A program made the translations under genes and the position numbers. Below the pieces are notes generated by a model. The model worked only from the letters and a program-made list of their open reading frames with translations, was not told where the DNA came from and ran no database searches. A DNA stretch of 54,642 bases, from NCBI GenBank assembly GCA_003605085.1, contig QZKD01000006.1:1-54642 (forward strand). Direction: 5' to 3'. This stretch comes from Acholeplasma sp. (lineage in GTDB: Bacteria > Bacillota_I > Bacilli_A > Acholeplasmatales > Acholeplasmataceae). Position 1 is the stretch's first letter. Each line of letters opens with the position of its first letter. Below are positions 26,578 through 50,099 of the stretch, piece after piece.

Positions 26578-26609
26578 ACAAAAAAGCACGAGATTTCGTG
26601 CTTTTTTTT
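26578..26609. terminator. bidirectional intrinsic terminator
   Basis: AAAAAGCACGA and TCGTGCTTTTTT arms around a short loop (core 26585-26602). Serves the small membrane protein gene and the B12-unit gene converging on it. A nearly identical stem recurs at 40211-40237. Confidence 0.88.
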
Positions 26610-27141
26610 ATTGTGTTGCTTGTCTAAATTTATACAATTGAACCCTCAGTATTTTCATAAGCGGTTCATATAACCAAAGAATACCTAAGAAATTTGTCAC
26701 AGCCATGACAAACTCGAAAGGAAGATCCATGAATAAATAGGCTAAAAACGGAGTTCCCGACACAAAGACAGAAACCGGAATAAATACCCATCCATAAAGG
26801 AAGCCAAAGAAAAAGCCAAAGATAGCCAACCGGTGTACCGATTCCCATGATTTAAGGATGGTGGTAAGTAAGATAGGAATAAGTAACCAACCGATAAGCA
26901 TCGAAGGGATATGAAGTGGAATCACAGGACCAAATGGAGATAAAATATTATAGACCAAAACATGCACAACAATAATTAGACTTGTTTTTCTAAAACCTAA
27001 GAGTTTGGTATAAATAATTAAAAGTAAGGTTGTAAATGAGAAATTAGGAATCATCGACAACGCGAGTTGTTGCACGAAAAGAACGGCTGCAAACAGCGCG
27101 ATTAGTGCAATCTCTTTCATTGCTTTATGACTCTTACTCAA
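26608..27141 (-). CDS. ECF transporter S component-like membrane protein
   Basis: A 177-residue protein with about five to six hydrophobic segments (12-32, 37-55, 58-75, 79-96, 108-128, 136-158). The opening IALIALFAAVLFVQQ helix with an alanine-rich face is typical of energy-coupling factor S components. It is the last gene behind a cobalamin riboswitch, so a corrinoid or precursor is the likely ligand (CbrT/CblT-type); this is inferred from context. The TTG start at 27141 has GGGAG 8 bases upstream, better than the ATG 21 bases inside. No EcfA or EcfT is in the window. Confidence 0.75.
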   Translation of the reverse strand: MSKSHKAMKEIALIALFAAVLFVQQLALSMIPNFSFTTLLLIIYTKLLGFRKTSLIIVVHVLVYNILSPFGPVIPLHIPSMLIGWLLIPILLTTILKSWESVHRLAIFGFFFGFLYGWVFIPVSVFVSGTPFLAYLFMDLPFEFVMAVTNFLGILWLYEPLMKILRVQLYKFRQATQ

Positions 27142-27147
27142 ACCAAA

Positions 27148-27627
27148 TCACTCCCAAACAGATTCTAAAACAATACGAAATTCATCCTGGTCTTCAAAAG
27201 GAATTTGACTGGGACCTAAAGTCGATAAAACATAATCATCTTCATGCTTCACATAAAAAGCTAAAAAAGTATTTGACCAATCGGATGCGACACTAAATCC
27301 TTCACCTGAAATGCCAAGAATGACTTTTCCCTCATAGGCAAAACTTGTAAATGTATACGAACAACTGGAATCTGCCCCATAAGATGAATTCGCACATGTG
27401 AGATCAAAATACCGATCTAGAATATTAAAGAATGTATCTCCTTCATGGTAGATAAGTACTTCATCAAATACAATGGTGCCATCTTGATCGATGATTTCAA
27501 GATGAATTTCACCTTCATCAGTCGCGATGTTTTCAATCCATAATAATCTTCCCACCACAAAGGCCATCAGAACGACCCCAAAGGTGATGATCAATTTAAC
27601 TCCGAGGTGTTTCACACCATCACTCAT
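27148..27627 (-). CDS. membrane-anchored DUF4430 protein
   Basis: A 159-residue protein with one N-terminal membrane segment (about 8-28) and an extracellular DUF4430-like domain: DGTIVFDEVLIYHEGDTFFNILDR then GEGFSVASDWSNTFLAFYVKHEDDYVL. DUF4430 resembles the beta domain of human intrinsic factor and transcobalamin. It has a cysteine pair (CANSSYGADSSC) absent from the lipoprotein upstream. It lies between that lipoprotein and an ECF S component in a B12-riboswitch unit, suggesting corrinoid handling at the cell surface. The exact start is uncertain (ATG 27627 or GTG 27615). Confidence 0.75.
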   Translation of the reverse strand: MSDGVKHLGVKLIITFGVVLMAFVVGRLLWIENIATDEGEIHLEIIDQDGTIVFDEVLIYHEGDTFFNILDRYFDLTCANSSYGADSSCSYTFTSFAYEGKVILGISGEGFSVASDWSNTFLAFYVKHEDDYVLSTLGPSQIPFEDQDEFRIVLESVWE

Positions 27628-27633
27628 TTCTTA

Positions 27634-28821
27634 TTACTGATATGGAATAAAGAGGTTTACTGCGGGATTTCCCCATACATCGCGGTATAATTTATAAGCG
27701 ACTAATGCTGAAAATACTTGAGGAGTAGAAAATGCTAAATCTGCGTTTTCATCAGCGAGTAAATACTTAAATGTTCGATCAACTTCATAGAGTTTTAATG
27801 CTTCAATTAAATCAGTATTATCGAGTGTATATTCAGTTCCTCTTGGATTAATACCTTGTGCGATAAGTCCTAAAACGACGGCTGCCGTTGAGGATGCATT
27901 GGGGTTGCCCCAAGATTCGATCCCTGAAGATGTAAGCTGATCACCGATATAAACCAGCATCTCATTCACAAATGATTCCACTTCCATATTTGATCCATAA
28001 GGGGATAATGCATTTAGCACCATGCCTGCATAATCTGCATCCATATAAGCTGGAGTCGATTGAGTTAATTCATCGATCATCGTGCTCGTTACTTCCATAC
28101 CTAAGAGGTGATAGGCATTCATGAATGAAACACTCTCGTAATGATTGGCGGGTATCATCGATACAATCGCTGTCTCTAAAGTAGAGGTTTGTAGACCAAA
28201 CGCTTGTGCAATGACACTTGATTTAAATAGACTGGCAATCGTGTCATCCATTAAGCCAGGATAATCATAATTTTGATCGTTTAATTCAGGGATATCATAA
28301 CCACGATCAGAAAGTTGTTTTAACGCTGCAACAACATGATAGCTTGCAGCATTTTCATTGATATAGTCAGATGCATGTTGCTCGATGAATGCATAAATGA
28401 CTTCATCCACCCAAAGATCGATTTCATCAAGCATCGTGGATTCCTTAAAGGAAATCTTTAAGCCATCTGAAAGTTCGATATCTTCTATCCCTACATTTGA
28501 CATCTCATCATCGATATATAAGGAATACCAATAATTATAGGTGATGCCATATTCGGTTGGGTAAAACCCTTCAATTCCATTGATCATCGTCCCTATGTCA
28601 AAGACAGAATAATCAAGGTCAATCGCTTGATCGATTAAATCAAACACACTTTCTTCTGTTGTTAAGTCATAGGTGATCGTTTCAAAAAAAACCTGCGTTC
28701 CTAAAAGATCAACAACTTCAACATCCAATGTTCCCCTAGGAACCTCTAAGTTGTCTTCCTGACATCCAGCAAGAAGGACAAAACTCAAAAGAATTAAACC
28801 TGTAAGCCAAACTTTTTTCAT
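27634..28821 (-). CDS. intrinsic-factor-like lipoprotein (DUF4430 plus helical domain)
   Basis: A 395-residue surface lipoprotein: signal peptide with lipobox LLAGC (Cys20). Residues about 28-118 form a DUF4430 domain (VFDLIDQAIDL, INGIEGF, YNYWYSLYIDDEMSNVGIEDIEL). Residues about 125-395 form a repeated helical array resembling the alpha-alpha barrel of intrinsic factor/prenyltransferase proteins. The domain order is the reverse of human intrinsic factor, where the barrel comes first. The start at 28821 has AAGGAG 7 bases upstream; longer readings enter the riboswitch. First gene after a B12 riboswitch, so a secreted cobalamin-capturing protein is the best inference. Confidence 0.8.
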   Translation of the reverse strand: MKKVWLTGLILLSFVLLAGCQEDNLEVPRGTLDVEVVDLLGTQVFFETITYDLTTEESVFDLIDQAIDLDYSVFDIGTMINGIEGFYPTEYGITYNYWYSLYIDDEMSNVGIEDIELSDGLKISFKESTMLDEIDLWVDEVIYAFIEQHASDYINENAASYHVVAALKQLSDRGYDIPELNDQNYDYPGLMDDTIASLFKSSVIAQAFGLQTSTLETAIVSMIPANHYESVSFMNAYHLLGMEVTSTMIDELTQSTPAYMDADYAGMVLNALSPYGSNMEVESFVNEMLVYIGDQLTSSGIESWGNPNASSTAAVVLGLIAQGINPRGTEYTLDNTDLIEALKLYEVDRTFKYLLADENADLAFSTPQVFSALVAYKLYRDVWGNPAVNLFIPYQ

Positions 28822-28840
28822 GCCTTTTCTCCTTTTTTGA

Positions 28841-28868
28841 TAAAAAAATCCATACCTCTTGGGCATGG
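28841..28868 (-). terminator. riboswitch-controlled terminator before the B12-uptake operon
   Basis: Minus strand CCATGCC, CAAGA loop, GGTATGG, then ATTTTTTTA. A second candidate hairpin (AAGGA/TCCTT with T4) lies just upstream near 28879-28896, probably part of the switching region. Confidence 0.75.
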
Positions 28869-28904
28869 AAATAGACAAAAAAGGATTTTTGTCCTTCTCA
28901 ACCC

Positions 28905-29075
28905 CAGAAGATGACTCGATTTGACGTCGATGGTAGGTCTCCCGGCTTAACATCATCCTAATCTGCACCTTCCCACGAAAATTCGCAGTGGTTTTTGCAT
29001 TTCGTCCGTATCACGGTTGCTGGGACAGCTCAAGTTTCTCACTTGATTCCCTGTTATGCGTATCGCACCATATCG
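28905..29075 (-). promoter_or_regulatory. cobalamin riboswitch
   Basis: Minus strand shows the B12 element landmarks: AACAGGGAATC..., the AAGTGAGAAACTTGAGCTGTCCC stretch, CAGCAACCGT, and the B12 box AGCCGGGAGACCTACC. It is followed by intrinsic terminator structures and then the lipoprotein gene, an OFF-type layout for a cobalamin-repressed uptake operon. The length (about 170 nt) and order fit the family; boundaries are approximate. Confidence 0.93.
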
Positions 29076-29092
29076 TCGATTCGATTAATTCT

Positions 29093-29121
29093 ATTATAGA
29101 CTACCTTGGGAAGATGTTCAA
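29093..29121 (-). promoter_or_regulatory. promoter of the cobalamin-riboswitch operon
   Basis: Minus strand TTGAAC (29121-29116), 17-bp spacer, TATAAT (29098-29093). It lies between the fchA stop and the riboswitch. Confidence 0.82.
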
Positions 29122-47912: not shown

Positions 47913-50099
47913 TTAAATCGCACACTTTTCGTAATCACACTCAGGATTATTACAGTGGATACAACCTTGTTTTTTAACAAGAACATCACCACAAAGTGGG
48001 CATAATTCTTTTTCAATCTTTTCCGGTGTATGACCAGAGGATGAAACCGATATATGAGTCACATATTCTTTGATGACACCTGTTCTCTTATCCGTCCATT
48101 TTTCTTCAAGATGAACATGAGGAGGTGTTGCAGGATTCAAGTCTTCTGTGTTTTCATTCACACCCGCAAGAATTCCGATCTTTGCGCAGCGATCTCTAAA
48201 AACGGTTGCACCCTTGAAACCTTTTCTCCAAGCGGTTTTATAGATAGTGATGACATCTTCTACGGTTGCGCTATTGTGTAAGTTAAAGGTTGAACTAATT
48301 GCGGTATCGACATATTTTTGAATGGTTGCTTGGACGTTAGCTCGATCCATAAATGCGATATTTTGTGAAGTAATGAGTGCCCACTCAGGAAGCTCTTCAG
48401 GCTTAACGCCCATGGCTTTAGCAAGAGCAAGCGGAGTTTTTTCCCAAATCGTAATGGTTTTTTCTTCATCAAACATGGAGACAATACGACGGGTATAGTT
48501 GATCTGGAAGAATGGTTCAACTCCTCCGGATACACCGAGGATATTGGATATCGATCCTGTAGGAGCAATCGATACAAGACGTGAATTTCTTAACCCGTAT
48601 TGTTTGACGAGTTCATCGGTATCTTGATCGATGGCTGTTTTATAGAATTGTGAAGAAGATACTTTATCATAATCAAATCGTGGGAATACACCGAGTTCTT
48701 TAGCTTGAAGGGCAGATGCTTTCATCGAGGTATTGATCATACGACGCATGAGTTGATCTAAGAATTCCAAAAACTCAGGACTGCCGTAAGGAAGTTTCAT
48801 GGATAATGCTAAGTCAGCAAGACCCATCACTCCGAGACCAACTTCGCGGTAATTCTTCACGTGTTCTCTTTGTTCAGGAAGTGCGTGACGATCACCGAGC
48901 ATCGTGAGTAAATCATCTAGGGCAACAATCATTTCAGAGACAACAAAATCGAAGCGTTCCCAATCATAAGTTGCATTATCCGTAAACGCATTTTTAACAA
49001 ATGCATTCAAATTGATACTTCCAAGATTACATGAACCATGGGGCATGAGAGGTTGTTCCCCACAAGGATTGGTTGCAGTAAAACGCACATCATCATATTC
49101 ACTCATTAAATGATAATCATTCATGTGGTCGATGAAGATGACCCCTGGGTCACCCATCGTATGTGCTGAATAACCGACGAGTTTCAAAAGATCTTGAGCT
49201 TTTATCTTCTTTTCAATGAGTTCATAAGGTGTTTCAAAATTCATTACCCATTCATCATTGTTTTCAACAGCATTCATAAACGCATCGGTGAGTGCGATGG
49301 AAATATTGGCACCATTCACTTTAGAAAGATCTAGTTTGGTGGTAATAAAATCGATAATATCAGGATGATCAATATTGAGTACGAGCATTAGTGCACCACG
49401 ACGGTTATCCTGTTGTGTATTTAAGGTTGTATGTGAGTATTTTTCAGCGAATACCATCACACCTGGGGTGGTATTGGATGAGTTGTTGACTTTCGCACCC
49501 TTGGGACGAATCTTTGAAAGGTTCATGCCTTGACCACCACCGTAACTATAGGTTCTTGCAATTTGGTAGTCAACTTTATAGATGCTTTCTAAACTGTCTT
49601 CAGGATCTTGAACAACATAACAATTTGAGCCTGTAATGTTTCCATCACGACCGATTGCATAGAGGTTTCTTCCCCCGAAAATAGCTTCTTTACGACGAAA
49701 AATCTTTTCTAATGAAGACTTTCCAAACGCGATACGCTTGATAAAGTCTTTCTTATCTTCGCCGTTAATTAAATATTTCTTTAAGATGAGATCTTGTCTT
49801 TCGTCATTATCCGCCCAAGGATTATCACGATCTGTCTTCTGTTTCTCGCGATATTTAATGTAAGAACGTGCAGCTTCATAATACTTCTTCTTCATTAAAT
49901 AGAGTTCAACGTCATCTTGAATCGTTTCAATGGCGACATCTTCATTCTTTGGGTAAGCCTTGGTAATTTCTTGCGCTTGCTTTAGGCACTCATCATCTGT
50001 AAATGTAAGTCCGACGCTTTTATACGACTTTTGCATCGCTTGCGCAATTTTGTGTAAATCAAACGGTTCTATCGTACCGTTACGTTTCACGACATTCAT
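47913..50099 (-). CDS. nrdJ: adenosylcobalamin-dependent ribonucleotide reductase (class II)
   Basis: 728-residue NrdJ. An N-terminal ATP-cone (about 1-90) is followed by the ten-stranded barrel: SNCYVV with Cys160, GGGQGMNLSKIRPKG, NPCGEQPL with Cys346 and Glu348 of the active site, and GSCNLGSINL. The C-terminus ends in a CPLCG...C...C zinc-ribbon-like tail (four or more cysteines) thought to deliver reducing electrons. No radical-generating small subunit is nearby, fitting class II. This is the third cobalamin enzyme in the window. AAGGTGG upstream of the ATG; own promoter. Confidence 0.94.
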   Translation of the reverse strand: MNVVKRNGTIEPFDLHKIAQAMQKSYKSVGLTFTDDECLKQAQEITKAYPKNEDVAIETIQDDVELYLMKKKYYEAARSYIKYREKQKTDRDNPWADNDERQDLILKKYLINGEDKKDFIKRIAFGKSSLEKIFRRKEAIFGGRNLYAIGRDGNITGSNCYVVQDPEDSLESIYKVDYQIARTYSYGGGQGMNLSKIRPKGAKVNNSSNTTPGVMVFAEKYSHTTLNTQQDNRRGALMLVLNIDHPDIIDFITTKLDLSKVNGANISIALTDAFMNAVENNDEWVMNFETPYELIEKKIKAQDLLKLVGYSAHTMGDPGVIFIDHMNDYHLMSEYDDVRFTATNPCGEQPLMPHGSCNLGSINLNAFVKNAFTDNATYDWERFDFVVSEMIVALDDLLTMLGDRHALPEQREHVKNYREVGLGVMGLADLALSMKLPYGSPEFLEFLDQLMRRMINTSMKASALQAKELGVFPRFDYDKVSSSQFYKTAIDQDTDELVKQYGLRNSRLVSIAPTGSISNILGVSGGVEPFFQINYTRRIVSMFDEEKTITIWEKTPLALAKAMGVKPEELPEWALITSQNIAFMDRANVQATIQKYVDTAISSTFNLHNSATVEDVITIYKTAWRKGFKGATVFRDRCAKIGILAGVNENTEDLNPATPPHVHLEEKWTDKRTGVIKEYVTHISVSSSGHTPEKIEKELCPLCGDVLVKKQGCIHCNNPECDYEKCAI

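Follow-up and report, generated by a model that had tools for sequence, protein, structure and literature searches.

What does a three-gene operon standing behind a cobalamin riboswitch do for an Acholeplasmataceae bacterium? We analyzed a 54,642-nt stretch of DNA from Acholeplasma sp. (contig QZKD01000006.1, hereafter the window), in which an earlier note made from the sequence had proposed a riboswitch-controlled module for surface capture of cobalamin followed by ECF import. The features form one compact minus-strand operon running from a promoter-like site at 29121 to a terminator at 26580, with intergenic gaps of 6 nt each within the trio. The note had given the span as 26634-29121, of which the upstream limit (29121) holds; the S-component gene ends at 26608, 26 nt past the other limit. 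From 5' to 3', the operon comprises:

29093..29121, minus strand: promoter-like site TTGAAC-17-TATAAT, directly 5' of the aptamer (a consensus match only, 10/12, and weak evidence)
28915..29087, minus strand: cobalamin riboswitch aptamer RF00174 (88.3 bits, E 1.6e-20, full model 1-189)
28849..28869, minus strand: intrinsic terminator between the aptamer and the first gene (expression platform), a hairpin with a U-tract
27634..28821, minus strand: lipoprotein of 395 aa with lipobox LAGC, N-terminal DUF4430 and C-terminal alpha/alpha toroid
28444..28650, minus strand: DUF4430 / transcobalamin-beta-like domain of the lipoprotein (31.9 bits; top match human transcobalamin beta domain)
27667..28431, minus strand: alpha/alpha toroid domain of the lipoprotein, mature residues about 112-366, from fold comparison
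27148..27627, minus strand: membrane-anchored DUF4430-type protein of 159 aa, with an N-terminal helix (4-28) and a beta-grasp (36-158)
26608..27141, minus strand: ECF S component of 177 aa, CbrT-like, whose family profile matches PDB 6FNP (ECF-CbrT)
26580..26607, minus strand: operon-end intrinsic terminator, bidirectional, with a 12-pair stem

To assess the conservation of the trio, we searched the lipoprotein against 88 genomes of the same family, yielding matches in 31 of them, nearly the whole genus included. In all 20 loci fetched from this set the trio is contiguous with its gene order unchanged, and a full-length cobalamin riboswitch lies directly upstream in 19, the exception (L051) being at a contig end. 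For distant loci, we used the lipoprotein profile against a 395-genome sample of the class and fetched 20 loci from five families (f2, f7, f10, f14 and f17), of which 19 have all three genes in order and 19 the riboswitch, L120 having neither. Taken together, 39 of the 40 loci, from six families, keep the trio adjacent and ordered and 38 have the cobalamin riboswitch upstream, with gaps mostly below 25 nt and some overlaps across the 39 loci, and with lowest identities to the window proteins of 24% for the lipoprotein, 17% for the small protein and 29% for the S component. Because the surrounding neighborhoods differ between groups, the trio itself is the conserved unit. The operon is not a chance grouping, and a lack of conservation, which the earlier note had named as evidence against its reading, is not what the genome search found. 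We also paired riboswitches with genes, requiring the same strand and a riboswitch at most 2 kb upstream, and including weaker matches to the DUF4430 part only. Among the matches listed, 73 of the 150 cobalamin riboswitches of the class sample (about half) precede a lipoprotein-profile match, and 28 of the best 30 lipoprotein matches have a cobalamin riboswitch.

The riboswitch that the earlier note had placed ahead of the trio was recovered by the covariance model over its full length and above the gathering score (88.3 against 31.5 bits), and it is the only cobalamin riboswitch found in the genome (29087-28915, minus strand). In 35 of the 39 loci, the stretch from aptamer to start codon contains a hairpin with a U-tract after it, the stem sequences differing. 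The four loci that have no leader hairpin (L112, L119, L122 and L123) encode a toroid-only lipoprotein and have a leader of 6-16 nt; in these, control is probably exerted at translation. Uptake genes are usually repressed by cobalamin, and by this logic scarce intracellular cobalamin would allow transcription past the terminator.

The first gene encodes a lipoprotein whose lipobox, LLAGC, was recognized by inspection and whose cysteine is invariant in a 38-row alignment. Its DUF4430 domain passes the Pfam cut-off (28.5 bits against 23.8). We modeled the mature protein with AlphaFold using 38 sequences (pLDDT 95.2, pTM 0.91), and the best Foldseek matches of the model were the isolated human transcobalamin beta domain (5no0, with an E-value of 2.1e-5, and 5np4) and the DUF4430 structure 3u7z. 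In the fold comparison, the helical barrel-like region described in the earlier note is a toroid scoring Z 18 with terpene cyclases and Z 15.8 with the alpha domains of intrinsic factor and transcobalamin, and glycosidase-like (GH105-like) toroids also outscore intrinsic factor. Since both of these groups score equally well or better, the toroid agrees with the animal carriers and is not singled out as one of them. Its sequence similarity to PF01122 (Cobalamin_bind) or to intrinsic factor stays below accepted cut-offs: PF01122 had no match in the window lipoprotein and reached 18.3 bits (E 0.0012, cut-off 25) in the relative L124, and the lipoprotein family profile aligned weakly with both domains of human intrinsic factor, their order exchanged (15.4 bits over the two, E 0.09). 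Searching PDB sequences with the lipoprotein alone and NCBIfam with all three trio proteins gave nothing useful, and a phmmer search with L124 gave no match. The beta-then-toroid order, read from the fold matches of the model, is the reverse of that in human intrinsic factor, as the note had stated. In the comparison of the predicted structure with intrinsic factor, the beta domain is a clear match and the toroid a generic one, closer to terpene cyclases. Separately, the domain order together with the missing PF01122 match rules out the lipoprotein as an intrinsic factor of the animal type.

The lipoprotein varies among relatives. It is toroid-only in five loci (L050, L112, L119, L122 and L123), where DUF4430 is found only on the separate membrane protein; in these lineages the beta domain is therefore supplied solely by the small protein. 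In eight others (L046, L049, L110, L114, L115, L117, L118 and L121) an Ig-like domain or a coiled-coil-like stretch lies between the lipobox and DUF4430, as if the length of a stalk varied. One lipoprotein (L127:4177-5550, minus strand) seems, by eye, to have two tandem DUF4430-like domains N-terminal to the toroid. In L051 (G014:C47), the lipoprotein reading frame carries a long additional N-terminal stretch and reaches the contig end. L120 (G143:C50) is a lipoprotein paralogue lacking riboswitch, small protein and S component; its genome contains a standard trio as well.

For the second gene, no Pfam family, DUF4430 included, matched the 159-aa window protein itself, and DUF4430 was matched by 17 of the 40 proteins aligned as its family. 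Its AlphaFold model (pLDDT 93.6) scored Z 11.1-12.8 with 3u7z and with the beta domains of transcobalamin, haptocorrin and intrinsic factor, the next fold reaching 6.8. As the search of the PDB with the small-protein profile returned no relevant match, the assignment rests on the fold and on the relatives; with the N-terminal helix, these agree with the second membrane-anchored DUF4430-type protein that had been proposed. The beta-grasp domain has an insert after the helix that holds the pair Cys78/Cys89, and two cysteines occur in this insert in 30 of the 40 family members and none in 9, which suggests a disulfide in a region that would be equivalent to the B12-contacting part of transcobalamin (PMC1796856).

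The third gene matches PF12822 over nearly the full profile at 24.3 bits (E 3.5e-5), below the cut-off of 30.7. Using the S-component family profile against the PDB, the sole related match was 6FNP chain A (E 7.3e-5 and 2.7e-4, a remote similarity). We took this chain (182 aa) to be CbrT by its size, 6FNP being described in the depositing paper as the B12 transporter ECF-CbrT (PMC5997447). A single CbiQ/EcfT gene was found in the genome, on contig C28 and outside the operon, consistent with a group II (shared-module) arrangement. We found no FecCD-type permease (BtuC) in the genome, by which BtuCDF was ruled out as its B12 importer; as the genome is 85% complete, such absences are provisional.

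A need for the vitamin is apparent in the window, which encodes the B12-dependent lysine 5,6-aminomutase, ornithine 4,5-aminomutase and class II ribonucleotide reductase NrdJ as well as a PduO-type adenosyltransferase, and in L051 a CobA/BtuR-type corrinoid adenosyltransferase gene lies directly 3' of the S gene. The NrdJ gene (47913-50099, minus strand) places an adenosylcobalamin-dependent ribonucleotide reductase in a mollicute. Across 20 genomes from the genus, CbiD, a marker of corrin ring synthesis, was not found. The cultured congener Peloplasma aerotolerans has no cell wall, and most of its vitamin pathways are reported missing (PMC11122141). By analogy, the host bacterium is probably wall-less as well, and the wording "Gram-positive route" used in the earlier note is misleading. 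Separately, a lysine riboswitch (26187-26011, minus strand, 79.8 bits), absent from the whole-window gathering scan, lies upstream of the lysine fermentation genes. Both here and in six relatives, a terminator overlaps the 3' side of its P1 stem, which suggests a lysine-induced ON switch, a type already described for kal/kce (PMC5584792).

We consider it likely that the operon serves cobalamin uptake by a B12-requiring Acholeplasmataceae bacterium, the lipoprotein capturing the vitamin, the beta-grasp protein taking part and the CbrT-like S component importing it. The riboswitch, the conserved trio and the folds all support such a module, as had been proposed; capture and hand-off are the steps we infer. 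The lipoprotein would be tethered at the outer face of the membrane and would bind cobalamin in the manner of transcobalamin and intrinsic factor, with the ligand held between beta-grasp and toroid; the fold is predicted, and the ligand and affinity are presumed. The membrane-anchored beta-grasp protein may then take over the ligand or clamp it near the S component, which, judging by its homology, would import cobalamin with the shared ECF module of the cell. The imported vitamin would supply the two aminomutases and the class II ribonucleotide reductase of the same window. A more specific version, which we put forward tentatively, is that the toroid lipoprotein and the beta-grasp protein assemble in trans into a clamp loading cobalamin directly onto the CbrT-like S component. 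In human transcobalamin, the beta domain binds cobalamin even on its own, and its assembly with the alpha domain depends on cobalamin (PMC5599065); the natural toroid/beta split seen in relatives recalls these separately made, cobalamin-assembled domains.

The same architecture could scavenge other corrinoids or precursors, such as cobinamide or non-cobalamin cobamides, instead of or besides cobalamin. This is possible, if on the doubtful side: cobalamin riboswitches are described as broadly corrinoid-sensitive (PMC9600662) and CbrT is reported to carry cobinamide as well (PMC5997447), against which stands the lack of CbiD in the 20 genus genomes. The surface proteins might also merely store B12 or withhold it from competitors, the S component importing alone and receiving no delivery. 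CbrT with its ECF module is reported to rescue an E. coli btuF/btuC/metE deletion mutant, defective in B12 transport, for growth that depends on the vitamin and, when purified, to take up B12 (PMC5997447). We nonetheless regard such a storage or withholding role as unlikely, the strict gene order and the gaps mostly below 25 nt, with overlaps, in 39 loci suggesting a joint machine. That the toroid is catalytic or does not bind cobalamin, its place in the B12 regulon being incidental, fits its higher Z-scores with terpene cyclases and GH105-like toroids but is highly improbable given the transcobalamin-like beta domain fused to it, its occurrence downstream of B12 riboswitches across six families and the weak two-domain profile similarity to intrinsic factor.

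We compared the cobalamin uptake operon with known systems. The earlier note had suggested that it may be undescribed, which does not hold: bacterial surface proteins that join an SLBB (DUF4430) domain and a toroid, in either order, had been reported by Burroughs et al. (2007), who frequently found a second SLBB paralogue and CbiO/CbiQ genes beside them and predicted a role in B12 scavenging (PMC1796856). Our literature search found no test of this predicted role, and a full-text search for DUF4430 found no paper on the present system. The operon shares with the 2007 proteins the DUF4430-toroid fusion, the second SLBB paralogue in the operon, the secretion signals and the ECF-type neighbors. 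It differs in having a lone CbrT-like S component as the transporter gene rather than CbiO/CbiQ, in its upstream cobalamin riboswitch (riboswitches being unmentioned in that paper), in its mollicute host and in the relatives that combine a toroid-only lipoprotein with a beta domain on a separate membrane protein (PMC1796856). What is added here is the widespread direct link to a riboswitch, the CbrT-like S component as a constant third partner, the predicted structures, the split form and the presence in Acholeplasmataceae. The predicted folds resemble those of human intrinsic factor, transcobalamin and haptocorrin, clearly for the beta-grasp and generically for the alpha/alpha toroid; the order of domains is reversed, the protein is membrane-tethered, an extra beta-grasp protein is present and PF01122 is not matched over its cut-off. 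Surface lipoproteins that capture B12 are also found in Bacteroides, where their folds are not known to be related to these and they work with BtuB in the outer membrane. The likeness to these, as far as the accessible part of the source goes, is that B12 is captured ahead of a transporter, in other organisms (PMC6143338). With Lactobacillus delbrueckii ECF-CbrT (6FNP), the S component shares full-length profile similarity, a shared ECF module and a B12 context, while the sequence similarity is remote and DUF4430 partners are not described in the accessible part of that paper (PMC5997447).

The operon thus unites the 2007 prediction of transcobalamin-like scavengers with the later proof of CbrT as an importer, in one riboswitch-controlled three-gene unit found in at least six families. 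ECF transporters are generally held to work without separate substrate-binding proteins, and if the hand-off is true, the trio would be unusual in pairing such a transporter with binding proteins.
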